From assembly GCA_018222765.1 (NCBI GenBank), contig JAAEZT010000024.1, positions 1 through 59,780 on the forward strand: a stretch of DNA of 59,780 bases, in the 5' to 3' direction. Made by a program: the position numbers and the translations under genes. Each line of letters starts with the position of its first letter. Positions within the stretch are counted from its first letter, which is position 1. Origin of the DNA: a bacterium (lineage in GTDB: Bacteria > Verrucomicrobiota > Verrucomicrobiia > Verrucomicrobiales > Akkermansiaceae). Shown piece after piece: positions 3,777 through 59,780 of this stretch. Under the pieces are notes generated by a model that had not been told where the DNA came from, made no database searches, and was given only the letters and a program-made list of their open reading frames with translations.

Positions 3777-5273
3777 CTAGGCGAGAAGTTCTTTGATCAC
3801 ATGCCCGTGAATATCCGTGAGGCGGAAATCACGCCCTTGGTAGCGATATGTCAGCTTCTTATGATCAATCCCCAGGAGATGTAGAATCGTCGCGTTCAAA
3901 TCATGAATATGCATCGTTCCCGGTGTGTGCTTTTCCTTATCCGGCTGTGGCTTGAGCGGATTCCCATCAGCATCAGCGATGTTGTAACCAAAGTCGTCGG
4001 TCTTGCCATAAGTAATCCCCGGCTTCACTCCACCACCTGCCATCCAGGTCGTGAAACAACGCGGGTGATGATCACGCCCATAATTCTCCTTCTTCAAACC
4101 ACCCTGACAATAAGCCGTCCGCCCGAATTCCCCGCCCCAAACGACAAGCGTGTCTTCCAACATGCCTTTGCGTTTTAGGTCGATGATCAAGGCCGCACAG
4201 GCTTGGTCGATATCCTTACACTGCGATTCGTGTTCGCGAGGGAGATTGCCATGAGCATCCCAGCCACGATGAAAAATTTGGACATTGCGCACCCCTCGCT
4301 CAATCAAACGCCGGGCGTTCAGACAACACGCCGAAAAGGTTCCCGCCTGCCGGGCCTCTTCTCCGTAGAGCTTGAATGTCTCGTCAGACTCACTCGATAA
4401 ATCCATCAACTCCGGAACGGAGGTCTGCATGCGATAGGCCATCTCGTGCTGTTTGATCCGAGAGAGAATCTCCGGATCACCGAGCCGCTGGTGTTGTTCG
4501 TAGTTCAATGCAGAAAGCGCATCGAGTTGATTGCGTCGGTCCGACCTCGAAACATTTTTGGGATTCCCCAAATACAAAACCGGATCTCCCTGGCTTCGCA
4601 AAAGAACACCTTGATGCTCCGAAGGCATAAAACCACTCCCCCAAAGACGCCCGAACAAACTCTGCTCCGCGTGGGATGACTTGGCATGCATCACCACGTA
4701 ACCGGGCAGGTTCTCGTTCATATTCCCCAAACCGTAACTCAACCAAGACCCCATACTCGGACGACCCGGAATCTGGCTTCCTGTTTGAATGTAGGTAATT
4801 GCCGGGTCATGGTTAATTGCCTCGGTGAAGGTCGAGTGCACCACGCAGAGATCCTTCACCACCTTCGCAGTATGCGGAAGAAGTTCACTTACCCAGACTC
4901 CGTCCTGATTATTCTCCTGCCTGGTAAATTTGTATTTTGAAGGACACACCGGGAGGGTCTTTTGGCGCGAGGTCATCCCCGTGATACGCTGACCATCTCG
5001 AACATACTCCGGAAGATCCTTCCCGAACATTTCCTGCATCTTGGGCTTGTAATCCCACATGTCATGCTGACTCGGACCGCCGCTCATAAAGAGGTAAATC
5101 ACCCGCTTGGCCGTCGCCTTGTGATGCATCCCCTCACTTGTCGTGGCCGCCTGCAAACTCGGTCCCATCAATTGCGCCAGCGAGGCTGTCCCCAGCCCCA
5201 AGGCCGCCCGTCCAAAGAGTTGGCGACGGGTTTGACTCAGACCGTTCTCTTGAAAAATTCCAAATTCGTTCAT
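3777..5273 (-). CDS. DUF1501 family secreted protein
   Basis: A 498-residue DUF1501 protein (sulfatase-like fold, function unknown). The start at 5273 is chosen because it gives a twin-arginine-like leader ([14 protein letters not shown]) and lies only 5 bases after the stop of the upstream PSD1 gene; the longer open frame overlaps that gene. Visible family features are [12 protein letters not shown] near residue 65, [16 protein letters not shown] and [17 protein letters not shown] in the second half, and [15 protein letters not shown] near the C-terminus. In PVC bacteria DUF1501 genes are nearly always paired with PSD1 cytochromes, as here, and the pair probably works in the periplasm on a shared unknown substrate. 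Tat export is inferred. Confidence 0.92.
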
Positions 5274-5278
5274 CACGT

Positions 5279-7483
5279 TTAATAGAGTAAGATTGTCATA
5301 TCGCTCGCCAACACCGCGCCGGCGAGCTGGCTCCAAGCAGATTTTTCGTCGTGTTTGGCATCTTTGGCCTGCTTCAGAAGCTTCAAACAAACCGTCCGTT
5401 CATGCTCCGACGCGTCCCGACACGCAATCCATTGAAAGAGTTGATTCACTCTCTCAACATCATTCTTCTTTTCCGACAACAATCGTGACGCGACACCCTG
5501 TGCCATCGCCACTCGCTGCGGTTCGTTGAAGAGCGCGAGTGATTGCAACGGCGTATTTCCACTCGTCCGGCGCACGCAACTCACCTCCCGGCTCGGCGCA
5601 TCAAAGAGCGTCATCATGGGATGGGGGCTCGTTCGCTTCCAGTAGACATACAAGCTCCGCCGAAAGGCCCGCTGGTCCTTGTCGGCAACATACTTTTTGG
5701 TATTGCTCCCCGGATGGGACAAGGCCGCCCACATTCCGTCAGGCTGAAAGGGCTTAACTCCCTCGCCTCCCATCGTGGGATCCAACAACCCCCCTGCCCA
5801 AAGCCCGAGGTCACGAATCACTTCGGCATCGAGACGATAACTCGGACCACGACCCAGCAAGAGATTTTCCGGATCCTCTAAATCAGCCCTCCGCACGGAG
5901 TCCTGTCGGAAGGTCTTACTCATCACCATCATCTTCATTAGCCCCTTGTAATCCCAACCGCTCTCCTGAAAATCCACCGCAAGCCAATCCAGCAACCTCG
6001 GGTGAGTTGGCTGCCTTCCTTGTAGCCCAAAATCCTCCGGACTCCGTACCAAACCAGCGCCGAACACCGACTGCCAGAATCGATTCACCAAGACCCGCGC
6101 CACAAGAGGGTTTTCCCGCGAAGTCGTCCATTGAGCCAAACCGAGACGATTCTTGGGAGCATCTTTGGGAAAAGGATTCAACACCTTAAAGACACCCCGC
6201 GAAACCGGCTCGCCCATTGGTTCATTATATTCTCCACGCCGAAGCACCTTGGTCTCCCGCTTCTTCTTCAACTCCTCTGCTACCAAGGTCGTGGTAAATG
6301 CTTTTTCCAAATTAGCTTTTTCCTCATCCAATTTCTTTGCTTCTTCCGCAAAGTCTCCTTCACCTTTCGACTTTAGGGCCTCCCGCTTTTTCACATAAGC
6401 ATCCCACTGTTTCCAGGCCGCTGCATTTGCCGGCGCTTTCATCACTGGTTTGTATTCATACTTGTTCCCATCCATCGGGCTCTCGCTCGTGCTATTGAAG
6501 AAGGCCATCAACTGGTAATACTCTTCATGCACAATCGGGTCATACTTGTGGGTATGACAGCGCGCGCAATTCAAAGTCATCCCCAAAAAGATCGTTCCAA
6601 AATTCTCAGTGCGATCGAAGTTATTCTTGGCCTGAAATTCCGCCGGAATCGCTCCGCCTTCCGCGGTCGAAACATTCATCCGCACGTATCCCGTCGCCAC
6701 GCGTTGAGCCACGGTTGGACTCTCCAAAAGATCCCCCGCCAACTGCCAAGTGATGAAATCATCAAAAGGCAAATTCTCATTGAAGGCTTTCACCACCCAG
6801 TCGCGATATGGATAAATCCCGCGCTTGTTATCAAGGTGCAAGCCATGGGTATCGCCATAACGCACCGCATCCAACCAGTACCGAGCCTGATGCTCACCAA
6901 ATCGTTCGCTGCCCAGCAGCTGATCGACCAGTTCCTCAAAATCACCACTTTTGAGATACGCCTCCAGTTGCTCGTTCTCCGGCGGCAGCCCCGTCAGGAC
7001 CAAGGCCACGCGTCGAGCCAGCGTTTGGCGATCTGCTTCCGGAGCGAAGCCTTTCCCATCCAGTTTTGCCTCCACCAAACGATCAATACTCCCACCTTCA
7101 ACAGTCCCAGGCTTCACGAAAGCCCAATGCTCGGCATACTCCCCGCCGCTCTTAACCCATTGCGACAGCAACTCCCGCTCGGCCTTCGTCAATTGCTTCT
7201 CGGCATCCTCCGGCGGCATGGGATCTTTCTCATCATGGATGCGAATCAACAATTCACTGTTCTCCAGCTTCTCTGAATCAATTGCAGAATACCCGCCCAG
7301 ATCCTCCGTCGCCCCCTCATACGAATCCAAACGCACCTCGTCCTTCTTCGCATCCGGCCCATGACAGGCAAAACACTTATTCGAAAGAATTGGCAAAATC
7401 TCTGTCGAGAAATCCGGACCCTCTTCAGACCAAATTGGCCCCACCAACAAACAAGCGATCGCAATCTTCCGCATCCCCGTCAT
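5279..7483 (-). CDS. PSD1 / DUF1549-DUF1553 planctomycete-type cytochrome
   Basis: A 734-residue protein with a short signal peptide (ATG at 7483, or three codons later at 7474). The N-terminus has a PSCyt1 cytochrome motif CFACHGPD at about 37-44. The middle is the DUF1549 domain with a second CxxCH ([11 protein letters not shown]), and the C-terminus is DUF1553 ([41 protein letters not shown]). It is cotranscribed with the DUF1501 gene 5 bases downstream and divergent from a sulfatase gene. This set is common in polysaccharide-degrading PVC bacteria; the reaction is unknown but presumably redox, given two heme motifs. Confidence 0.92.
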
Positions 7484-7570: not shown

Positions 7571-8977
7571 ATGACCGCATTCAAGCAACTCACCCTGTCC
7601 CTCCTCTGTTTCAGCTCCGCCCTCGCTGCCGACAAACCCAACATCGTCATCATTCTCACCGACGACATGGGCTATGGCGATCCGACTTGCTTTAATCCCG
7701 ATTCCAAAATCCCCACGCCGCACATCGACAAGCTGGCCGCCGACGGAATAAAGTTTACCGACGCCCATGCGCCAGGTGCGCTGTGCCACGTCTCCCGCTA
7801 TGGCCTGCTGACCGGACGCTACCCCTTTCGCAAACGTATCGTCTGGAAAAACAATGCTGTCATAGACAAAGACCGCCTCACTCTCCCCGGAATGTTGCAA
7901 AAGAACGGCTACCACACCGCAATGGTCGGCAAGTGGCACCTCGGGTTTTTCGAAGATAAGAAATTTGAGGGAACTCTAAGTGGCGGACCGGCCGATCGTG
8001 GATTCGACACCTTCTTCGGCATCCGGGCCTCCACTGATATTCCACCTTACTTCTACATCCGTGACGACAAGGCCGTCATGCCGCCGTCTTTAAAAATCGA
8101 AGCAAACAACACCAAAGGCTGGTCACCGATCCAAGGAAAGTTCTGGCGCGCCGGGGGCATTTCCCCTGACCTCAAACTTGAGGAGGTCACGCCCCGCTTC
8201 ACCACTGAGGCGATCTCGGTCATCGAAAAACACGTCGCCAAAAAGGAAGACAAGCCCCTCATGCTCTACCTCGCCTATCCCGGCCCACACACCCCGTGGT
8301 TGCCCACCAGGGAATTTGTCGGCTCCACCAAAGTTGATCTCTACGGCGACTTCACCCACATGATCGACGCGGAAATCGGCAAGGTTCTCGGAGCCCTCGA
8401 CAAAACAGGAATGGCAAAAGACACCATCGTCGTCTTCACCGCAGACAACGGGCCGGTTTGGTATGACGTCGATACCAAAAAATTCTCACACGACAGCTCG
8501 GGTGGCCTGCGCGGGATGAAAGCCGACGCCTGGGAAGCGGGGCACCGCATGCCCTTCATCATGCGCTGGCCCGCCGCCATTAAGAGAGGACAAACCGCTG
8601 ACCGGACAATCTGTTTCACCGACCTCTTCCGCACCTTCGCCGATCTCACTGGCGCCGAGATTCCCAAGGGACAGGCACCCGACAGCGTCTCATTCCTTCC
8701 CACTCTCAAAGGAGGAAAGATCAACCCTCGCAAGCCCATCGTGATGGGAGCCGGACAAAATCACTTTCTCGTTCGTTCCGGCGACTGGAAACTCATTACC
8801 GGACCCGGCTCCGGCGGATTTTCAAAAATCGACAAAAAGGTTCTCAAGACTCTTCCCAAGGTCCAACTCTACAATCTCAAGGACGACCTCGGCGAAACCA
8901 ATAACCTCGCCGTAAAACACCCCGAAAAAGTCAAAGAACTCCAGGGCCTCCTTGAATCGATCCGTAACGAAAAGTAA
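7571..8977 (+). CDS. Secreted arylsulfatase-like protein
   Basis: A 468-residue sulfatase (alkaline phosphatase superfamily) with signal peptide 1-20. Metal ligands DD at 31-32 and the ADNGP segment are present, and KWHLG follows the active-site region. The formylglycine motif reads C72-H-V-S-R, followed by YGLLTGR; the usual C-x-P-S-R proline is Val. Cys72 and Arg76 are kept, so maturation by a formylglycine-generating enzyme is still possible but not certain. It probably removes sulfate esters from polysaccharides. It is divergent from the PSD1/DUF1501 operon and 8 bases from the downstream P450 gene, so the two are likely cotranscribed. Confidence 0.9.
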   Translation: MTAFKQLTLSLLCFSSALAADKPNIVIILTDDMGYGDPTCFNPDSKIPTPHIDKLAADGIKFTDAHAPGALCHVSRYGLLTGRYPFRKRIVWKNNAVIDKDRLTLPGMLQKNGYHTAMVGKWHLGFFEDKKFEGTLSGGPADRGFDTFFGIRASTDIPPYFYIRDDKAVMPPSLKIEANNTKGWSPIQGKFWRAGGISPDLKLEEVTPRFTTEAISVIEKHVAKKEDKPLMLYLAYPGPHTPWLPTREFVGSTKVDLYGDFTHMIDAEIGKVLGALDKTGMAKDTIVVFTADNGPVWYDVDTKKFSHDSSGGLRGMKADAWEAGHRMPFIMRWPAAIKRGQTADRTICFTDLFRTFADLTGAEIPKGQAPDSVSFLPTLKGGKINPRKPIVMGAGQNHFLVRSGDWKLITGPGSGGFSKIDKKVLKTLPKVQLYNLKDDLGETNNLAVKHPEKVKELQGLLESIRNEK

Positions 8978-12380: not shown

Positions 12381-15300
12381 CTATTTCCCCTCCGCAATGA
12401 GCTTGTTGACCAAAGCGAGCGCACCCAATGTTGGCTTTAGATTTGGTTCGAGGATAAGCGCTTTTTTAAGAAGCTTTTTTGCTTGGATAAGTTTCCCGTG
12501 GCTGGCGAGCATCGTGCCGTAGTCGTGATAAATCCTAGCAGAGGGCGCGATTACTAGGGCTCGTTCGAAGTGGGCCGCTGCGCGCTCTGGTTCCACTTCA
12601 GCCTTATAGCGTCTGGCGAAGGCGTAATGTTTTTGTACGAGTTCTTCTCCTAGAACTCCCTTTGGCCCACCCGCCGACTTCCACATGGCAGCCTCGAGAT
12701 AGAACAAGGAATCTTCCTCCAACCTCGCCTCGAATTGACGGGCCATGAGTTCAAGTGCGATTGCCGGATCGATGGGCTTGGTAAACCAACGACCTGCGAA
12801 CGGCGGAGCCAGAGCGTGCAACTGATCTACACTCGCTTTTCCGGTTGCTTTCAGATCTGAAAGCACTTCCTCCAATCTCAGCGAACCACGATAGAGAACA
12901 GAGACATTTCCCTCCCGGTCACAAAGTAGGGTCAAGGGAACCGCCATCGGCACGGTCAGATCAAACAAAGCCCGCTGGAATTCATCGATACGATCCACCG
13001 CATCGGGCTCAATCATTCCCCATTCAAAAGGCCATTTAGTTGAGTCGACGAGATTGTAAGCCTCCGAGATTCCATCAGCGCCATCCACTGAAAGTCCAAC
13101 CAGATCTATTCCTGCAGCTCGCAATTGATCAGCCGACTTCGCGAGCATCGCGAGATCCCCGGCGCAGTGTTCACAAAACGCCGACCAAAGCATGACCAAG
13201 CGAGGACTCCCCTTCCCAACGATGAGCTGCGGTTTGCCAAGAGCATTGCGATATCCGATCGGGGGCAGTGGAATTTTTGCCGGGAGGATGATACGGGCAT
13301 TTTTACTTTGATAGACCTCGGACGGAGTATCTGTAGGCCGAACCGCGCGCGGCGTCCGGGTCACCTCAACGGCTGTTCCGCCGCCTTCTTTGAGCAGATA
13401 AGCTCCACCAATCTCAGCTCCGCTAAATTTCTCCACCTCCCCCCCGGGCCACACTACTTTGATCTCTTGAATTTTTCCTGCATCCCCTAGGCCAAAGTGC
13501 AACCATCGACTCGATTGCGAGAGGAACAGATCACCAGCCCGCACTGACATGACGAGGCGCTTGGAAGCGTCATCAACGACCACTTCAGCGACCGCACCAA
13601 TAGCATCGCGATTGCTCGTGGTGCCCTCAAGTCGCAGCGCCACAAAATTACGAGAGCCCTCGCCCCCAGCATGTTGATTGAGCATCAAGCGAAGTCGTGG
13701 AGCGGTCCGGTCACGATACCACACATCGAGATCTCCATCTTGATCCCAGTCCACCATCGCCATGGCCCGCCCGTCGCCACTGTGATCAAGGCCGCTGATT
13801 GAGGAGACGTTCGCGAACCTCGCACCGCCCCGATTCAAAAGAAGTCGATTGCGCTCGTGGCCGCTCCAACTATGGCCATCCCGGACCAATTGAATGATGG
13901 CGGACCATGCACTGCCATAGCGCTTGGGGTCGGCCTGCTGTTTGGGCGACACGACCTGCCGCCAAAAGAAACTTCACAAATCATCGGACCGCGTGCCGGT
14001 GAGATAACCATTCGCCACCGCAATGTCCTCCCAGCCGTCATTATTGACATCAATAAACCCCGAACTCCAAGCCCAGCGCCCCATCGTCACTCCCGACGGC
14101 TCACTGACATCGCGAAAGCCACCTTTGCCATCCGCGGCAAAAAGCGAATTTCCCCGAGCCATTCTCTGTAAACCTTCGATCTCCGAAGACTCCCCAAAAT
14201 TCCCTTGGCAACTAATTCTCCGACCTGCCGACGAAAACATGTTCCCGACATACAGGTCCGCCGCGCCATCGCGATTGAAATCTCCCCATGCCACTGACAT
14301 CCCGGAAGCCATGTCTTCCACACCCAGCTCTGCGGCAATCTGATTAAATTTTCCGTCGTCATTCCGATAGAAACAATTGCGGCCGAAATCATTTGCGACG
14401 TAAAGATCCGGATCACCGTCGCGATCAAAATCCTCCCAAGCCGCCGAAAAACTCCAACGAGAATTATCCTCATCGAGACCAACTTGTTTGGTGACATCTG
14501 CGAATTGAAATCCTCCCAGATTCATCAGGAGTAGATTCCGCCCGCCATTCTCCGCATCATTAAAGGGCGTCGGAGAAGTCGCCTCAAATCCCCGAGCACC
14601 GGCAGTATCGCCGGCACTATAAACACAGGCATAAATATCGAGATCACCATCGCTATCGAAATCGGCTGCACTCAATGAGAAAGGATATCGCGCGCCTTGA
14701 TGACCACCACGCAGGGTGAATTTCCCATAGCCGTCATTCACGGCAAAAGCGATCACACCGATCGTCGCTACGACGAGATCCTGATCACCATCATTGTCGA
14801 GATCAATTAACAGCGCACTCCGTGAATCCTCCAACCAGTCAATACCGGCCTCAGCCGAAACATCACGCACCGTCCCATCCGCTTGCTGCAAATACAAGCG
14901 GTTGGGCAAACTCCCACCGTCACAGACGAAGAGATCCTCCATGCCATCGCCATTGACATCTCCAACAGCCAGACCTTGGTGCCCCGTCAGCGAAAAGTCG
15001 CCAAACCTCGTAATTCGCGATGCCCAAAAACTGGTCCCGGTCATCACCTGCGATTCAAAATGAGGCGTTTCACCGAGGACTGAGCGCGTGGCATCGACAA
15101 AGTGAACGCTCCCGGCCGATTCCTCGTAGCTCAAAAGATCCAAACTCAACAACTGAGGCGGGTCGAAATCGTTCCATTGCGCCCTCCACTCTGCCGTCAC
15201 CTGCCTTGGCTTTTTGCTCTCTGCCGAAAAACCTCGCAACTCAATCAAGATCTCGGTCACAAACCCGACTTCCTCTTTCGAAAAGCTCACTACTTTGACG

Positions 15301-15950
15301 TAAGACTTCATCTCGTCCTTCGCAAACACCGCCCGCAAATCCGCAAGTGCTTCCGCTCCCTTCATTTCAGGAAGGTCCCCGCCCTCCCACTTCGAGACAA
15401 TAAATCCGCCACGATGTTCCTGACTTTGCAAATCATCTGGCCGCAGATCGCAACAAACAAATCCTAAAGCAGCACTACTCCCATCAATTAAATGACGAAT
15501 CCGTTCTGCGACTGCAGCACTTAAGGATTCAGTTTCCCAATCCGCTCCCGGTTGAAGTTTCGCAATTTCATTAGCGACACCTATCGACTCCTGCGGGCCT
15601 TCATGATTCACCTCAGTCACGCTTGAACTCGAACGAGAAGCCGCAAACCGATCCTTGTCCTGCGCAGTTCGAAATCGAAGTTGAATGAGTTCATTACTCG
15701 CCTGAATGGCTTCCTCTTTTGAAGGCACCTCTTTTTTATCGGAGTCCCCGCCACAGCTCGGAAAAATGAGTAGCATCAAAGAACAGAGCAAAAGCGAGGA
15801 CCATTTTGATTTCGAATTCCCCCTCTTCTCATTCGCTCCCCAGTCTCGATCGGGAATCGTGTTCCTCCGTGAACCAATAAAAACTGCAAGCACCGGCGGG
15901 ATCATAAAGAGCGTCTTCTTGGGAGAAACTGTAACGAGCAATCCCACCAT
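12381..15950 (-). CDS. CRTAC1/ASPIC-UnbV protein with redoxin domain; predicted selenoprotein
   Basis: One long reading frame interrupted by a single TGA at 13974-13976. Reading it as selenocysteine gives about 1189 residues. The N-terminus has a hydrophobic lipoprotein-like segment ending in PSC. Then come FG-GAP/VCBS Ca-binding loops (DVNGDGMED, DLDNDGDQD, DFDSDGDLD, DFDRDGDPD, DFNRDGAAD, DVNNDGWED). Sec is at about 659 in DDL-U-SFFWRQVV, followed by another loop (DWDQDGDLD) and the ASPIC/UnbV domain (NRDAIGA, LHFGLG) at about 770-850. A redoxin-like region follows with WSAFCEHC (Cys about 926 and 929), then TPR-like helices. Both sides of the TGA are in the same frame and family, with no frameshift. 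A SECIS-like hairpin lies 7 bases after the TGA. The start is uncertain: 15950 is the longest ATG after the upstream terminator; 15905 is an alternative. A plain nonsense mutation is the other explanation. Confidence 0.8.
13941..13976 (-). promoter_or_regulatory. Putative bacterial SECIS hairpin with its TGA (CRTAC1 gene)
   Basis: On the minus strand the TGA is at 13976-13974. Downstream, TTTGGCGGCA (13966-13957) pairs with TGTCGCCCAAA (13951-13941), with one bulged C and one G-U pair, closing a 5-base loop GGTCG. The loop G is 18 bases after the TGA. The GCA-GGUC apex is what I remember for E. coli formate dehydrogenase SECIS elements, at nearly the same distance. Seen directly in sequence; function inferred. 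Confidence 0.7.
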
Positions 15951-15981
15951 GGCGAGACCGATATCAGTCACGAAGAAACCC

Positions 15982-16010
15982 AAAAAAAGAGCAGCCCGCA
16001 GGCTGCTCTT
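15982..16010 (-). terminator. Intrinsic terminator after entericidin-like gene
   Basis: On the minus strand a 10-bp perfect stem (AAGAGCAGCC / GGCTGCTCTT, loop TGCG) is followed by seven T. It ends the short lipoprotein gene and argues that the CRTAC1 gene downstream starts after it, ruling out the longest TTG start at 16037. Confidence 0.88.
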
Positions 16011-16037
16011 GGGAAGTATTTGCTGGAACTCCGCCAA

Positions 16038-16166
16038 TTAGCGGTTCGCAGCATTTTGAAGCTTCTGTCCGGCACCGGTGAGATCGCGGCCCAGACCTGT
16101 CATGGTCTGGCAGCTGGAAACGGCGAGGAAGGCAAATGCGGAAAGCAGAATAGCGATTTTTTTCAT
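16038..16166 (-). CDS. Entericidin-like small lipoprotein
   Basis: A 42-residue gene: Lys-rich start (MKKIAILL), hydrophobic core, lipobox-like AVSSC with Cys at 19, then a short polar tail with GLGRDLTGAGQKLQNAA. The tail resembles the EcnA/EcnB entericidin family (Gly-rich, G-x-D-x-x-x-A-G-x-K), tiny outer-membrane lipoproteins linked to stress. It is a complete unit, with a strong terminator just downstream and an AT-rich leader upstream. Whether it acts as a toxin or an envelope component cannot be said. Confidence 0.78.
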   Translation of the reverse strand: MKKIAILLSAFAFLAVSSCQTMTGLGRDLTGAGQKLQNAANR

Positions 16167-16420: not shown

Positions 16421-18049
16421 TCACTTCTTTTTCTCCTGGCCCCTCTTCCCGACGAACGGACCGGCCATCGGAGGAGTCTCAAAAAACTTTCCGCCATCAA
16501 CCAAACGAGGATCGCTCGTCGACTTCAACTCAGCCATCAACTGGTCGCGTAGCTTCTTGACCGTCTTCACGTGTGCAGGATCGCCCGCCAAATTATTCAT
16601 TTGGTCGGGATCCGCTTTCAAATCATACAGCTCTTCGCGAGGTCGCTTGCCATAAGCATGATCGTAAAAAGGCTTAACCTTGGGATCTTTGCGATTGCTG
16701 ACTATCCATGCCTTTGTTGGCCCGGCATCCTCATCCGGGAGCGTTACAAAAGTGCTATTCGTCAGCTTCTCCACATTCGGCGCCCTATTACCATCGAGCA
16801 AATACGGATCGCCCAGAGGATAACGATCCGGTTTGAAATTAATCACGAAGAGATAGTCCTTCGTCCGAACCGCCCGCTGCGGATAGGGCAGATAACCTTC
16901 CCGCGCGACTGCCACATGGCGCTCGCGACCGAAAAATACCTCTGTCCGGCTCTCATCAACCTGACCGCTCTTTGCCAATTTCAAAGTGGGCCAAAGCGAC
17001 TTACTGGTCATCACCTCTGGAATATCCACCTTTCCCGACTCCAAAAACGTTGCGGCGAGATCTGGAAGCGACACTAAATCGTCGACCACCCTTCCACCTT
17101 TTATACCCGGCCCCGACAAAGCCAAAGAGACCCGCGTTCCAAAGTCATACAGATTGCACTTCCCATGCGGAAATCCAGCTGGACCGTGGTCCCCGGAAAT
17201 AGCTATAATGGTATTCTCGAACTCACCGGCTGCTTTCAATTCCTCCAGCAATATTCCCAAGGCCATATCAAAAGCCATCGCCTCGCCCAGATAGTCCGCA
17301 AAGTCTTGCCTCACTTCATGCACATCAGGCAAAAAGGCAGGCATCTTTCCCTTCAGAGAATCGGGATCAATCTTCCACAGCGCTTTGCCAGACCCCTTGA
17401 TCCACTTGCGATGTACATTCGTCGGGCCAAACCAATAGGCAAACGGTTGCCCCTCTTTTTTGGCGGCGAGCATCTGACGGAAATTATCGCGAACCTGCTT
17501 TGTCATCACCAGCTTCGCCTCCTCCACGGAGTTTCCCTTCGACACCATTCTCGTTACTGTCTGTGAAAAGCCATTATAGCTTCCACCGCCCTTCGCATAG
17601 GCATTGTCACTTCCGCCATAGGGCGCATCGCGCGGAGTCCCGGGGGACCAAACCTTCCAGGTGAAACCAATATGATAGCCTCCCTCCTTCAAGAGCAAAG
17701 GCCACGATGGGATGGAGTCATCCCAAACCGCCCCTTGCAAAATTGCCGCCGTGTTGGTTCGCCAAAAATGCTGCCCTGAAAGAATCGAGCTTCGACACGG
17801 CGTGCACGACGGAGCATTGACAAAGGCGTTTTTGAAGAGAACCCCTGAACTTGCCAGCGCATCGAAATGCGGAGTGTGTATCGCATCATTGAGCGTCCCC
17901 GGACCATCCGTCTTGGCGTAGGCAGACGCATGACGCCCCCAGTCGTCGGCGAAGGCGAACAAAATATTCGGCCGCTCGTCAGCCTCCAGAATAGAAACTA
18001 ACAAACTGGCGATCAGAATCAGCGGGCGGGAAAAAAATCGATTCATCAT
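16421..18049 (-). CDS. Secreted sulfatase (heparan N-sulfatase-like)
   Basis: A 542-residue sulfatase from the ATG at 18049, chosen because AGAGAGG lies about 6 bases upstream and a signal peptide (FFSRPLILIASLLVSILEA) follows. The formylglycine motif is canonical: SCTPCRSSILSGQ, with Cys-Thr-Pro-Cys-Arg. Metal residues are in FAFADDWGRHAS and SGDHGPAGFPHGK. The C-terminal PREELYDLKADPDQMNNLA segment is common in sulfatases of the N-sulfoglucosamine sulfohydrolase type. It likely hydrolyses sulfate esters or sulfamates of polysaccharides in the periplasm. It is transcribed alone. Confidence 0.92.
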   Translation of the reverse strand: MMNRFFSRPLILIASLLVSILEADERPNILFAFADDWGRHASAYAKTDGPGTLNDAIHTPHFDALASSGVLFKNAFVNAPSCTPCRSSILSGQHFWRTNTAAILQGAVWDDSIPSWPLLLKEGGYHIGFTWKVWSPGTPRDAPYGGSDNAYAKGGGSYNGFSQTVTRMVSKGNSVEEAKLVMTKQVRDNFRQMLAAKKEGQPFAYWFGPTNVHRKWIKGSGKALWKIDPDSLKGKMPAFLPDVHEVRQDFADYLGEAMAFDMALGILLEELKAAGEFENTIIAISGDHGPAGFPHGKCNLYDFGTRVSLALSGPGIKGGRVVDDLVSLPDLAATFLESGKVDIPEVMTSKSLWPTLKLAKSGQVDESRTEVFFGRERHVAVAREGYLPYPQRAVRTKDYLFVINFKPDRYPLGDPYLLDGNRAPNVEKLTNSTFVTLPDEDAGPTKAWIVSNRKDPKVKPFYDHAYGKRPREELYDLKADPDQMNNLAGDPAHVKTVKKLRDQLMAELKSTSDPRLVDGGKFFETPPMAGPFVGKRGQEKKK

Positions 18050-18343
18050 GGGAGACCTCTCTACTACGAGAGATTCACTCCAGACTATCAAAGTGCCGCT
18101 TCTACCAAACCACTCGAGTCACCACTTTGGGCTCCAGCTTCAGAATAAGCACCCACTCGATATCATCAGTGATGACTCAGTAAACTGAGAACCCTTGGAA
18201 TTAAATCGAAAAAAGAATTCACAACCCGCCGCTGAAAGACTGCGGACTCAACCGTTTCCGAAGCAACAAATCTTCAAAATGAATGATTGCTTGGATTTTT
18301 GAGAAAACATCCTAACTTACTGGGGACCTTAGCCCTATTCATC

Positions 18344-37311: not shown

Positions 37312-37869
37312 CTATTGACCTTTCCAGTCTGTCTGCGGCACTTCGATCACGTCCCCGGGATAAATCTTTAAATTCTTATGACGGTCATCCTTTAAATTAT
37401 ACAGGTAGACTTTATCACCGCGGATTAGCTTAACTCGATTGGTCGCTCCAAAGGGAGTCTTCCCACCTGCTGTCTGTACTGCCGTATAAAGGGTCATTCC
37501 ATTCGTGAATGGCTTTGGTCCCGGAAGCTTGACCTGGCCTCCCACCGTAAACCTCTTCTGCACAAGCCCACCATCAGTCGGAGTAGTCACTTGGAAGTTA
37601 GGACTGGTGTAGATACCTTTGGCTTTGTAAGCCGTTGCAATCGCTTCCGCCAACTGATTGGGCGTCCTCCCACTTGCCTTAATCACCCCGATCTCCCAGA
37701 GGGTTAAAGTGCCAGCCGTCGAAACCTGGTAGAGAGAATTCAAACGAGCCTGCTCCGCTGGCGGAACACCCAAAACTTTAATTTCCAAGGTTTGATTCGC
37801 TGAGATTGATTGTCCCATGGCGACGCCAAGAGTCAGGGTGAGCAGGATGAAGGATAGAATTGTTTTCAT
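37312..37869 (-). CDS. Polysaccharide export protein (Wza/SLBB type)
   Basis: A 185-residue protein with signal peptide (ILSFILLTLTLGVAMG). It shows the Poly_export domain (TLEIKVLGVPPAEQARLNSLYQVSTAGTL start) and an SLBB-like domain (FTVGGQVKLPGPKPFTNGMTLYTAVQTAGG), ending with KIYPGDVIEVPQ. It is shorter than full Wza. It sits downstream of the BY-kinase gene with a 46-base gap, in an exopolysaccharide export set. Confidence 0.88.
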   Translation of the reverse strand: MKTILSFILLTLTLGVAMGQSISANQTLEIKVLGVPPAEQARLNSLYQVSTAGTLTLWEIGVIKASGRTPNQLAEAIATAYKAKGIYTSPNFQVTTPTDGGLVQKRFTVGGQVKLPGPKPFTNGMTLYTAVQTAGGKTPFGATNRVKLIRGDKVYLYNLKDDRHKNLKIYPGDVIEVPQTDWKGQ

Positions 37870-37915
37870 TTCTTTGAAGGTGCTGAATTGGCAGTAATTC
37901 CTGCCTTTTAATTTT

Positions 37916-40084
37916 CTAATATAAGTCTTCCGAGGAAGATGTCTCTGATTTTTTCTCCTCGGTTTTGGATGATGCCGGCGCTGCAGTCATTTGCTGAGGC
38001 GTTCCGGTCTCCTCCAGAGAACTTGGAGCATAATAAGTGTAATAACTGGTGTAGTATTGATATTGGCTGTCACTTCGGACGTCCACATTGTTCAAGACCA
38101 CTCCAATTACCTGTCCTCCGACATTTTCCACAGCCTGCTTCACGCGTAGCAGCATGTTTCTTGGAAGCTTGCGATGCTGCACCACAACCATGGTGAGATC
38201 CACTTCACTCGCCAGAACTGAAGCGTCGCTCACACCGAGAATAGGAGGAGAATCCACCAAGACGAGATCAAAGCGCTGCTTCACATCTTGCAAGAGCTCT
38301 GACATCCGACGCGAGTTGAGAATTCCAGCTGCATCAGCCGGCAGAATTCCTGATGGGAGGAAATACAAATTATCAACTGGTGTCTGTAGAATCACGTCCT
38401 CAAGAGCAAGATCTGTGGTGAGATAATTGGTGAGCCCCACGGAGTTATTAATATCGAAGAAGCTGTGAAGTCGCGGACGGCGAAGGTCAGCATCGATCAT
38501 TAAGGTCGTATATCCGCCTTGCGCACAGACATATGCCAGATTTACCAGCGTCGTCGACTTACCTTCTCCTGCTCCACCGGAGACAACCGTGATCGAATTA
38601 TCCTCGGGGTTTTTGCGGTTGAACTCGATATTCGTTCGCAGAATGCGATAAGCTTCAGCATCGGGACTCATTCCGCTCTGCTTATGCAGAACGCCAACAT
38701 CCTTGGGAATCACTGCCAAAACAGGCACTTGAAGATAACGCTCAACGTCTTCCAAGCTTTTCACTGAGGTATCCAAATGCTCCAGTAGAAAGGCGATACC
38801 AATCCCAAAAATCAACCCAACTCCCGCACCGAGGAGAAGATTCAGAGTGACATTCGGAAATGATGGAACTTTTGCTTTCTTGGCTCTCTCGTGAAGAGTG
38901 ATCGGAGTCCGCGGCATTTTCAATAGGACGCGTTGCTGTTGTTGCTTCACAGACATCTCGCGATACATCATCCGGGACTGCTCATACTCCTCTTTAGCGC
39001 TATTATATTGATGCTGACGCATTGAGAGATCCACAGTTCCGTCTTTCTTCTCCCGAACCATCTGCTTCATCTTTTCAACTTGCTTATCAACAAGATTGAG
39101 CCTGGTCTCCAGAACCTCCTTGAGTGACACCACTTCCTTACCGGCGTTTTCCAATGCTCCATCAGCTCTCATCTTCATTGCCTTGACCTCCGGGTGATTA
39201 GGACCAAGGCCACTCGCAATCATCGCACTTACCTGCTCTTCGGCCGCACGATAGCTTGTATAGTAGGTGGTCACCTGATTCTCCGGAAGCTCAAGCCCCG
39301 CAGCAGTTCGGATTAAATCATCGTTGGGGGTGTCAATCAGTTTGCGAATCTGAATCTGTATCTGGTCTCGACTTTGCTCCAGCCCGTCCAGCTTTTCCTG
39401 GGCGCGACGATACATCAGCTCTTCAGCCTGTCCCACTTGGCCGGAACTCCTTCCATCAAAGTAGGGAATCCCATATTGCTGAATAAGCACTGTGAGAGCC
39501 TTACGATAATCCTGAACCAAATCCCCCTGGTCCTGAAGCTCTTGGTTCAGAGCCTCCAGAGCCTCCAGAGCCCTCCCCTCCTCAGTGCTGTTGCGCCTCT
39601 CGATATATGCCCGGGAAACCGCTTCGGCTATTTCCTTGGCATCCTCCGGATTTGCATGGGTGACAATTATTTGAATGAAATCGGTTCCTCGGATAGGGAT
39701 GGTATCAACCACATTCTCCAGTGTCTTTATCGTCGAATCCATATCCAGACCCCAGCGCGCCGGTAATTCAATACTCTTCGCCGCTTCCGCGAGAGTCTCA
39801 GGCGCCGTAATCGTTTCAAACTCATTCTCCATGTAGCGGGGGGTCATTGTCGAACCAGGTGTCATCTGGGAACCACGCAGGAATGGAGTCATCAAAAGAA
39901 CTGAAGGATGCACCTGCACCACCGACGAACTCTCATATCTTCGGGGCATCACCGAGGTGATCACTGCCGCTGTCATGAATACGAGGAGAAATGTCAGGAC
40001 AATTACCCCAAAACGATTTTTCACGACCTGCCAATAATCGACTGATGGTGCGACATCAGCCTTTCTAACGTTTGTTCCTTGCAT
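37916..40084 (-). CDS. Polysaccharide chain-length protein with tyrosine kinase domain (Wzc-like)
   Basis: A 722-residue fused co-polymerase and BY-kinase. Wzz domain with two membrane helices (about 27-49 and 415-440) and a coiled coil between. The kinase has Walker A GGAGEGKSTT (about 503-512), Walker A' MIDADLRRPRLH and Walker B LVLVDSPP. The C-terminal tail has a tyrosine cluster (YQYYTSYYTYY) for autophosphorylation, then a Ser/Thr/Glu-rich end. It regulates export of an exopolysaccharide. Internal membrane protein. Confidence 0.93.
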   Translation of the reverse strand: MQGTNVRKADVAPSVDYWQVVKNRFGVIVLTFLLVFMTAAVITSVMPRRYESSSVVQVHPSVLLMTPFLRGSQMTPGSTMTPRYMENEFETITAPETLAEAAKSIELPARWGLDMDSTIKTLENVVDTIPIRGTDFIQIIVTHANPEDAKEIAEAVSRAYIERRNSTEEGRALEALEALNQELQDQGDLVQDYRKALTVLIQQYGIPYFDGRSSGQVGQAEELMYRRAQEKLDGLEQSRDQIQIQIRKLIDTPNDDLIRTAAGLELPENQVTTYYTSYRAAEEQVSAMIASGLGPNHPEVKAMKMRADGALENAGKEVVSLKEVLETRLNLVDKQVEKMKQMVREKKDGTVDLSMRQHQYNSAKEEYEQSRMMYREMSVKQQQQRVLLKMPRTPITLHERAKKAKVPSFPNVTLNLLLGAGVGLIFGIGIAFLLEHLDTSVKSLEDVERYLQVPVLAVIPKDVGVLHKQSGMSPDAEAYRILRTNIEFNRKNPEDNSITVVSGGAGEGKSTTLVNLAYVCAQGGYTTLMIDADLRRPRLHSFFDINNSVGLTNYLTTDLALEDVILQTPVDNLYFLPSGILPADAAGILNSRRMSELLQDVKQRFDLVLVDSPPILGVSDASVLASEVDLTMVVVQHRKLPRNMLLRVKQAVENVGGQVIGVVLNNVDVRSDSQYQYYTSYYTYYAPSSLEETGTPQQMTAAPASSKTEEKKSETSSSEDLY

Positions 40085-58809: not shown

Positions 58810-59780
58810 ATGAGTCGCGATGACATCAAACGCCTGACAGAATTATCCTCCTGCGGAGGATGAGCCTCCAAGCTCGGCCAAGCCGAACTCACGCAGGTCC
58901 TGCGTGGCATTACCAATATCTCCGACCCCAATCTCCTTATCGGTTCCGCCAGCTCGGACGACGCCGCCGTTTATAAAATCTCGGAAGAGGTCGCGATTGT
59001 GCAAACCCTCGATTTCTTCACACCGGTCGTCGATGATCCCTACCTCTTCGGACAAATCGCGGCCGCCAACTCCCTCTCCGACGTCTACGCCATGGGAGGC
59101 AAGCCGATCACCGCGATGAACATCGTGGCCGTCCCCACCGATGAACTCTCACTCGACGTTATCAACCAAATCCTCCTCGGGGGAGCCGACAAGGTAGCCG
59201 AAGCTGAATGCGCCCTCGCCGGTGGTCACACTGTGCTCAATCCCCAACCGCTCTACGGACTTTCCGTGACCGGCTTGGTCAACCCCCACCACACCATCGC
59301 CAACACCGGCGGCAAGCCCGGCGATCACCTCCTCCTCACCAAGCCACTCGGCACCGGGATCATTTCCACCGCGATCCGCAAAGGTCTCGCCTCAGAGGAG
59401 CTGGAAGCAAAAGTCTCCAAGCAAATGGCCGAACTCAACACCCCCGGCTCCGCCCTCGCCACCGTGGGCATGACGCGCGCCGGCACCGACGTGACCGGCT
59501 TTGGGCTTCTCGGACACCTGAGCCACCTTTGCCGCGAATCCGGCGTGACTGCTCGCATTAATTCTTCGGCTGTTCCGGCGATCGATCCCGCGGTCATGGA
59601 ATTCGTCAAGGAAGGCCACGTCCCCGGTGGCAGCCGCAAGAACCTTGAACTCGCCAGAGAATTCACCACCTTTGCCGAGGGCGTTTCGGAAGAAACACAA
59701 ATCCTCCTAGCCGATGCCCAAACTTCCGGCGGCCTCCTCCTCGCCGTCAAACCCGACGAACTCCACGACGCCAAAGATAT
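58810..59780 (+). CDS. selD: Selenophosphate synthetase, Sec-containing, partial (right edge)
   Basis: The 3' end is cut by the window. It makes selenophosphate from selenide and ATP for selenocysteine synthesis. From the ATG at 58810, codon 18 is TGA (58861-58863), within SSCGG-U-ASKLGQAEL, the usual catalytic Cys/Sec loop. After it come SSDDAAVYKI, DFFTPVVDDPYLFGQIAAANSLSDVYAMGG, AGGHTVLNPQPLYGLSVTG, DVTGFGLLGHL and TSGGLLLAV, all SelD. Sec at this place is well known in SelD. An AUG-started frame after the TGA would lose the active site, so the TGA is decoded. A SECIS-like hairpin follows. Its presence implies a selenium-using organism. Confidence 0.95.
58861..58907 (+). promoter_or_regulatory. 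Putative bacterial SECIS hairpin with its TGA (selD)
   Basis: TCACGCA (58889-58895) pairs with TGCGTGG (58901-58907), with one U-G pair, around loop GGTCC. The first loop G is 33 bases after the TGA, within the range I recall for bacterial SECIS. The apex GCAGGUC matches that of the CRTAC1 gene. A second hairpin closer to the TGA (TCGGC 58874-58878 with GCCGA 58882-58886) has no GU in its loop. Confidence 0.65.

Follow-up and report, generated by a model that had tools for sequence, protein, structure and literature searches.

Does an in-frame TGA within a bacterial gene for a CRTAC1/ASPIC-UnbV protein end that gene, or is it read as selenocysteine (Sec)? The question is raised by a locus on the minus strand of contig JAAEZT010000024.1 of an Akkermansiaceae genome (assembly GCA_018222765.1), within a stretch of 59,780 nucleotides that was analysed whole and is called the window here. 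An initial annotation, made from the letters alone, proposed that the TGA at 13974-13976 encodes Sec and that the gene represents a new selenoprotein family. Three lines of evidence support this interpretation: homologues with Cys at the site, a Sec machinery in the genome, and a conserved hairpin after the codon. Judged from these sequence features, the gene very probably encodes a selenoprotein whose UGA is decoded as Sec.

The reading frame is continuous across the codon. Translation of 12381-16037 meets a single internal stop, the TGA at 13976..13974; the protein before it ends DVNNDGWEDIAVANGYLTGTRSDDL and continues after it with SFFWRQVVSPK, the frame being unchanged. The first description of this locus, in which one TGA splits a single frame without a frameshift, is confirmed, on the minus strand, and translation together with Pfam bears out its account of an FG-GAP region before the TGA and of SFFWRQVV and an ASPIC/UnbV domain after it. 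Both domains score above their cut-offs and place the protein in the CRTAC1/ASPIC-UnbV family (Table 1). The frame is open upstream to 16037, and ATG codons downstream of 15950 are also possible starts.

The in-frame TGA is conserved at one site in homologues. Whole-genome searches covered Verrucomicrobiota, as 97 related genomes and as an even, phylum-wide sample of 387 genomes; up to seven candidates were scored in each genome, and counts hold among the matches listed. Across 94 distinct aligned sites in related loci, 91 carry TGA and 3 carry Cys, the TGA sites coming from 31 genomes. Two close relatives, at 92% identity, retain the TGA, and paralogues abound in the 97 genomes, and almost every one contains a single TGA. 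In the phylum-wide sample, the listed TGA copies belong to the window's own genome and to G428, a SelA-positive genome from another class, in which the three sites read are all TGA. When 150 candidates were scored in each of three genomes, copies with TGA numbered 17 in G026, 9 in G073, and 8 in G021, with TGA at the site in all of them; the window's own genome holds 8. This is a large multi-copy family, beyond what the initial annotation saw.

Could the TGA instead be a sequencing error, the mark of a pseudogene, or the end of one gene followed by the restart of another? A GTG codon 21 nucleotides past the TGA offers such a restart (open reading frame, ORF, 12381-13952). Yet the same TGA recurs in 31 genomes and in paralogues, three Cys members read through the site continuously, and purifying selection is seen on both sides of the codon, with ratios of nonsynonymous to synonymous change after the TGA of about 0.15 (L010) and 0.22 (L011). 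We regard these explanations as extremely unlikely. The recurrence and the selection rule out a frameshift and a pseudogene, and a sequencing error at 13974-13976, which the initial annotation had named as a fatal objection to its own reading, is excluded by TGA at 91 of 94 sites. L010 and L011 duplicate the contigs of L015 and L016 and do not count as additional evidence; the upstream comparison for L017 was left out of the selection analysis, its alignment being out of register (33% identity). Extra stops in L049, L114, and L121 are only apparent, lying at or after the gene end when judged against L117. Two loci have an irregular structure: in L012, protein residues 9-69 and 1068-1218 adjoin and the middle is absent, by internal deletion or assembly fault, and L115 (G023:C9:146415-149220) appears, among the matches listed, to be split between two upstream of the TGA, perhaps by a frameshift or assembly fault.

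The genome carries selA, selB, selC, and selD, the first three of which the initial annotation had proposed to look for. Its tRNA-Sec scores 54 bits with anticodon tca; SelA matches at E 4e-123; and SelB, of 647 residues, joins GTP_EFTU, SelB-wing_3, and the SelB beta-barrel in one ORF, with wing_2 at the cut-off (22.3 bits). The selD gene lies in the window, as first reported, and has an in-frame TGA of its own (58861-58863, within SSCGGU), followed 32 nucleotides later by the hairpin ACGCA[GGUCC]UGCGU (58891-58905), whose apical GGUC matches that of the propeller gene and serves as an internal positive control. A general reassignment of TGA is ruled out, because 5 of the 24 ORFs in the window end at TGA in the ordinary way. 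SelA is found in all 31 genomes with TGA, against 53 of 97 overall (hypergeometric probability 2e-11, kinship ignored), and, outside the window's genus, in 9 of 9 against 28 of 70 (P 1e-4). In 12 SelA-negative genomes with all candidates scored, no listed match has a TGA; G004, G012, and G024, of the genus, are SelA-positive with no listed TGA copy.

A hairpin after the TGA would be the expected signal, a selenocysteine insertion sequence (SECIS). The initial annotation described 10 base pairs around a GGUCG loop; hairpin and loop stand, but the stem has 7 pairs in the minimum-energy fold, a stem of 10 requiring a bulge. Conservation in relatives, which was suggested as a check, is found in both loop and stem. 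The apical GGUC is present at 81 of the 91 TGA sites. The stem shows compensatory changes. It was compared in two subfamilies, a long group (75 rows in this comparison) and a short group (16 rows): it is paired in 95.1% of cells over 71 distinct long-group rows, against 88.6% when shuffled, and in 87.5% over the 16 short-group rows, against 79.3%. In neither group do any of 2000 shuffles reach the observed pairing; slid registers are all lower, and 21 cells in the long group show double changes. Stem variants include CGA CAG GTC GTG TCG, CGC CAG GTC GTG GCG, and AGG CAG GTC GTG CCT, and the step from CGC ACG GTC GTG CGC to AGC ACG GTC GTG CTC turns Arg...Arg into Ser...Leu (WRTVVR to WSTVVL) with the stem kept.

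Codon choice after the TGA varies far less than the protein sequence would allow: GTC is used for 83 of 91 Val at +7 (background 0.39) and GTG for 74 of 77 at +8 (0.33), with CAG at 61 of 64 (0.57) and TCG at 53 of 63 (0.20). At Sec loci, the Ser directly after Sec is encoded by AGT or AGC in 86 of 86 cases and by AGT in 73 of these (background 0.13); this UGA-A context is strong and perhaps counteracts termination. Loop and stem are also retained at the three sites read in G428, and neither is present at the three Cys sites scored. We take the GGUC loop to resemble the SECIS loop of Escherichia coli fdhF. At gathering scores, Rfam models found only a tRNA in the window.

Several observations speak against the hairpin as a SECIS or limit the figures just given. 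The folding energy in the window is unremarkable (z -1.2, with 26 of 200 shuffles folding equally well), so the case for a SECIS rests on conservation. With RNAalifold a consensus structure emerges for the 16 short-group rows, and the 75 long-group rows yield none (0.0). In two fixed registers, 12 of 91 sites form fewer than four pairs; seven of the 12 are GAG variants, in which a larger loop may allow pairing. The tested stem pairs were picked from these same sequences, so that the comparison with the slid registers is tilted towards those pairs, and the probabilities from codons and covariation are not independent because the sites are related.

Relatives without Sec show which residue stands in its place. 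The 14 that keep the surrounding motif have Cys in 9 cases, Asp in 4, and Gly in 1. The initial annotation had looked to Cys opposite the TGA as support, and this is found, several times in genomes without SelA; it had counted varied non-Cys residues as an objection, and this holds in part, for Asp and Gly, with Cys still in the majority. Five more distant matches have Leu (L142, L163), Phe (L144), Pro (L149), or Ala (L160) at the site; together with the Asp and Gly forms they mean that a thiol is not universal here, a point against our reading. The 14 leave out these five, the gapped L212 and L213, and four rows, likewise gapped, from a single own-genome protein. Among genomes without detected SelA, G086, G089, G369, and G418 have Cys forms; Cys forms also stand beside Sec forms in SelA-positive G026 and G073 and are found in SelA-positive G074. 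In G073 (L167, L195, L207, L208), the propeller exists in Sec, Cys, and Asp versions within one genome. These verrucomicrobial propeller homologues, with D/N-Y/H/F-[C/D/G]-x-x-F/Y-W, align across the Sec site; they differ in having no TGA, no hairpin at the three Cys sites scored, and open frames of 758-911 amino acids. Plasmid records gave 77 with a match, all below 60% identity, and 15 of the 20 listed are labelled CRTAC1 family protein; viral contigs gave no relative by one peptide pattern.

If a near-cognate tRNA, for example that for Trp, read the UGA and the hairpin merely slowed the ribosome, the sequence would in part look the same, with an in-frame UGA conserved ahead of a hairpin. 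Such readthrough does not account for SelA in every genome with TGA, for the GGUC loop shared by most sites and by the selD UGA in the window, or for the 14 motif-bearing relatives, where Trp is never found and Cys prevails. We consider it very unlikely.

The history of the site was read from a tree of 103 rows, in which the site letter was masked and the neighbouring letters kept. A branch with support 100/99 separates the 89 Sec rows from the rest, and 9 Cys rows form another group (95/84); L208 sits on a long branch, and long-branch joins are flagged by the program as a risk. The pattern fits one change from Cys to Sec and no return to Cys, in a tree whose root is not fixed.

Table 1. Features of the predicted selenoprotein gene and of selD in the window; residues are numbered in P0001.
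Feature	Position	Strand	Basis or remark
Predicted selenoprotein gene	12381..15950	minus	TAA stop 12381-12383; candidate start ATG 15950 (residue 30)
In-frame TGA, predicted Sec codon, residue 688	13974..13976	minus	TGA at 91/94 distinct aligned sites, Cys at 3/94
Candidate SECIS hairpin, 7 bp in minimum-energy fold of 40 nt	13945..13963	minus	Apical loop GGUCG 13952-13956; loop start 17 nt past UGA
FG-GAP/VCBS repeats (propeller), residues ~350-787	13677..14990	minus	Pfam FG-GAP_3 138.7 bits (cut-off 26.9), 6 stretches; bounds by eye
ASPIC/UnbV domain, residues 812-876	13410..13604	minus	PF07593 50.6 bits (cut-off 23.4)
TlpA/ResA-like thioredoxin domain, residues 942-1046	12900..13214	minus	CEHC 13164-13175; Pfam AhpC-TSA 24.1 bits, below cut-off 26
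TPR repeat, residues 1167-1199	12441..12539	minus	21.1 bits, below cut-off 27
Cys372, candidate partner thiol	14922..14924	minus	Present in 66/91 Sec members
Cys471, candidate partner thiol	14625..14627	minus	Same repeat register as Cys372; present in 67/91 Sec members
selD	58810..59766	plus	TIGR00476 374 bits, match 58831-59760; no stop up to 59766

How would the protein be made, and what might Sec do in it? The ribosome would read the UGA as Sec, directed by a bacterial SECIS with apical GGUC whose hairpin starts 10 nucleotides after the UGA and itself encodes the conserved W-R-x-V-V-x peptide. SelB and tRNA-Sec would deliver the residue; the machinery and the hairpin are seen in the sequence, and incorporation is what they predict. 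The product would be an FG-GAP/ASPIC propeller with Sec in the loop after one propeller repeat. It is probably exported, a step that we infer since a crude lipoprotein signal pattern matches only 6 of 34 members, L048 among them doubtful.

Two features of the long subfamily point to redox chemistry. The first is a pair of thiols in the propeller. Cys372 and Cys471 each lie 12 residues past the first Asp of their own repeats, the Sec loop leaves the matching place of a later repeat, and this common register suggests that all three residues probably share one propeller face; one or both Cys occur in 73 of 76 long-group members. The second is the fused C-terminal domain, already noticed in the initial annotation as redoxin-like with a CEHC motif. 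Its Pfam score is below the cut-off, and a profile from 15 members matches the TlpA chains 1jfu (E 1.4e-12) and 4txo there, human CRTAC1 (9etn) over the propeller, and TPR proteins over the C-terminal end. By text pattern, a CxxC follows the ASPIC domain in 70 of the 74 long-group members with enough sequence. These CxxC and Cys counts place L103 in the long group.

Sec would then act as nucleophile in a thiol/selenol redox site that the propeller carries outside the cytoplasm, and the fused CxxC domain would re-reduce it; the short subfamily, mostly ending before the thioredoxin domain, may use a Sec-x-Cys instead, present in 8 of 15 members. A redox centre re-reduced by the fused domain is favoured because of the CxxC, Cys372/Cys471, and Sec-x-Cys patterns, and a redox role for Sec is plausible, as first proposed; we put a thiol/selenol mechanism at about an even chance. 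Neither Cys is invariant among Sec members, which tells against it. AlphaFold2, given three aligned rows (the window protein with two nearly identical loci), reached a mean predicted local distance difference test score (pLDDT) of 29.5, and the model, which yields no distance between Sec and the two Cys, was not used.

The main rival to a redox centre, one that leaves the decoding of the UGA untouched, is a site for soft metal: Sec would bind metal or serve structure, and the thioredoxin domain would have another task. Sec, Cys372, and Cys471 could jointly form such a site, Asp in four relatives would suit a ligand, and 9 of the 11 short-group members with a stop in the sequence end at most 227 residues past Sec. 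It fits less well with the CxxC kept through most of the long group, with the CPVC of the short-group member L113, or with a 2026 review in which most uncharacterised selenoproteins are held likely to be redox proteins (PMC13188914). We give a metal-binding or structural role a sizeable minority probability. The redox proposal in its fullest form joins a Sec-Cys-Cys extracytoplasmic reaction centre, re-reduced by the protein's own thioredoxin-like domain, to a single origin from a Cys ancestor without return (89 Sec rows) and to 17 copies in one genome; taken as a whole it is tentative, a little short of even. If true, this would amount to a new class of enzyme, and the family would be a major sink for selenium in this group. 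To our knowledge, no biochemical activity has been assigned to bacterial CRTAC1/ASPIC proteins, and the Sec residue would provide a concrete place to seek one.

We read the locus as a new selenoprotein family, with Sec predicted on a CRTAC1/ASPIC propeller that is mostly fused to a thioredoxin-like domain. With bacterial SECIS-dependent selenoproteins it has in common an in-frame UGA, a downstream hairpin with apical G's, SelA, SelB, SelC, and SelD, and Cys homologues; it differs in that Sec would sit on a propeller and not on a thioredoxin-like fold. Human CRTAC1 (9etn) is the sole match of the Sec-region profile in the PDB at E <=0.001 (E 4.1e-19). FG-GAP repeats and ASPIC/UnbV (PF07593) are common to both, whereas the alignments stop short of the Sec loop, and the UGA-coded residue, the C-terminal thioredoxin-like domain, and the TPR are found here. 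The ResA-like WAxxUGC selenoproteins (NF041054) likewise have a TlpA/ResA-like domain, but here that domain keeps CxxC, the UGA is in the propeller, some 270 residues before it, and the score is 15 bits against a cut-off of 300. In NCBIfam release 20.0, the window protein matched 10 families, none near its cut-off, and the best 25 of 31 families matched by 15 members include no propeller selenoprotein model, in a copy not confirmed to hold all models of the catalogue.

The literature gives a similar picture. A 2026 catalogue counts 119 selenoprotein families and subfamilies, and its Table 1, in which a few rows are unnamed hypothetical proteins, has no row named FG-GAP, VCBS, CRTAC1, or ASPIC (PMC13188914). 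The terms FG-GAP, CRTAC, UnbV, and VCBS are absent from the text of this paper and of three others (PMC12013277, PMC9312934, PMC2398784). Titles and abstract openings, a search that stopped short of subscription papers, preprints, and GenBank annotation, gave no CRTAC1/ASPIC/FG-GAP/VCBS selenoprotein among the matches listed; a planctomycete genome paper places its selenoprotein candidates in a supplement (PMC4807772). The deep-Sep method may miss selenoproteins without Cys homologues (PMC12013277), and the family may have been overlooked so far because its Cys relatives are distant. The same 2025 paper gives at least 46 selenoprotein genes as the record for one bacterium (PMC12013277), against which this one family alone would contribute 17 copies in G026. 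If so read, the selenoproteins gain a large family on an unusual fold, whose genes may easily be annotated as two broken fragments.

The surroundings of the genes are varied. Among ten ORFs scanned in the vicinity of the own-genome members, two of which are SelB and a member itself, no shared partner was found; the neighbours include peptidases M24 and M3, gyrase B, PSD/PSCyt proteins, and CotH. Immediately upstream of the gene in the window, a 42-residue ORF (16038-16166, minus), ending GRDLTGAGQKLQNAANR by eye, resembles the entericidin-type small lipoproteins, and a terminator-like hairpin with a T-run, also seen by eye, lies at about 15981-16012. Around the gene, the ranges 3777-7483 (minus), 7571-8977 (plus), and 16421-18091 (minus) hold a DUF1501 protein, a DUF1549/DUF1553 cytochrome-like protein, and two sulfatases. 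Farther off, 37312-40084 (minus) encodes a polysaccharide export (SLBB) protein together with a chain-length/tyrosine autokinase protein.

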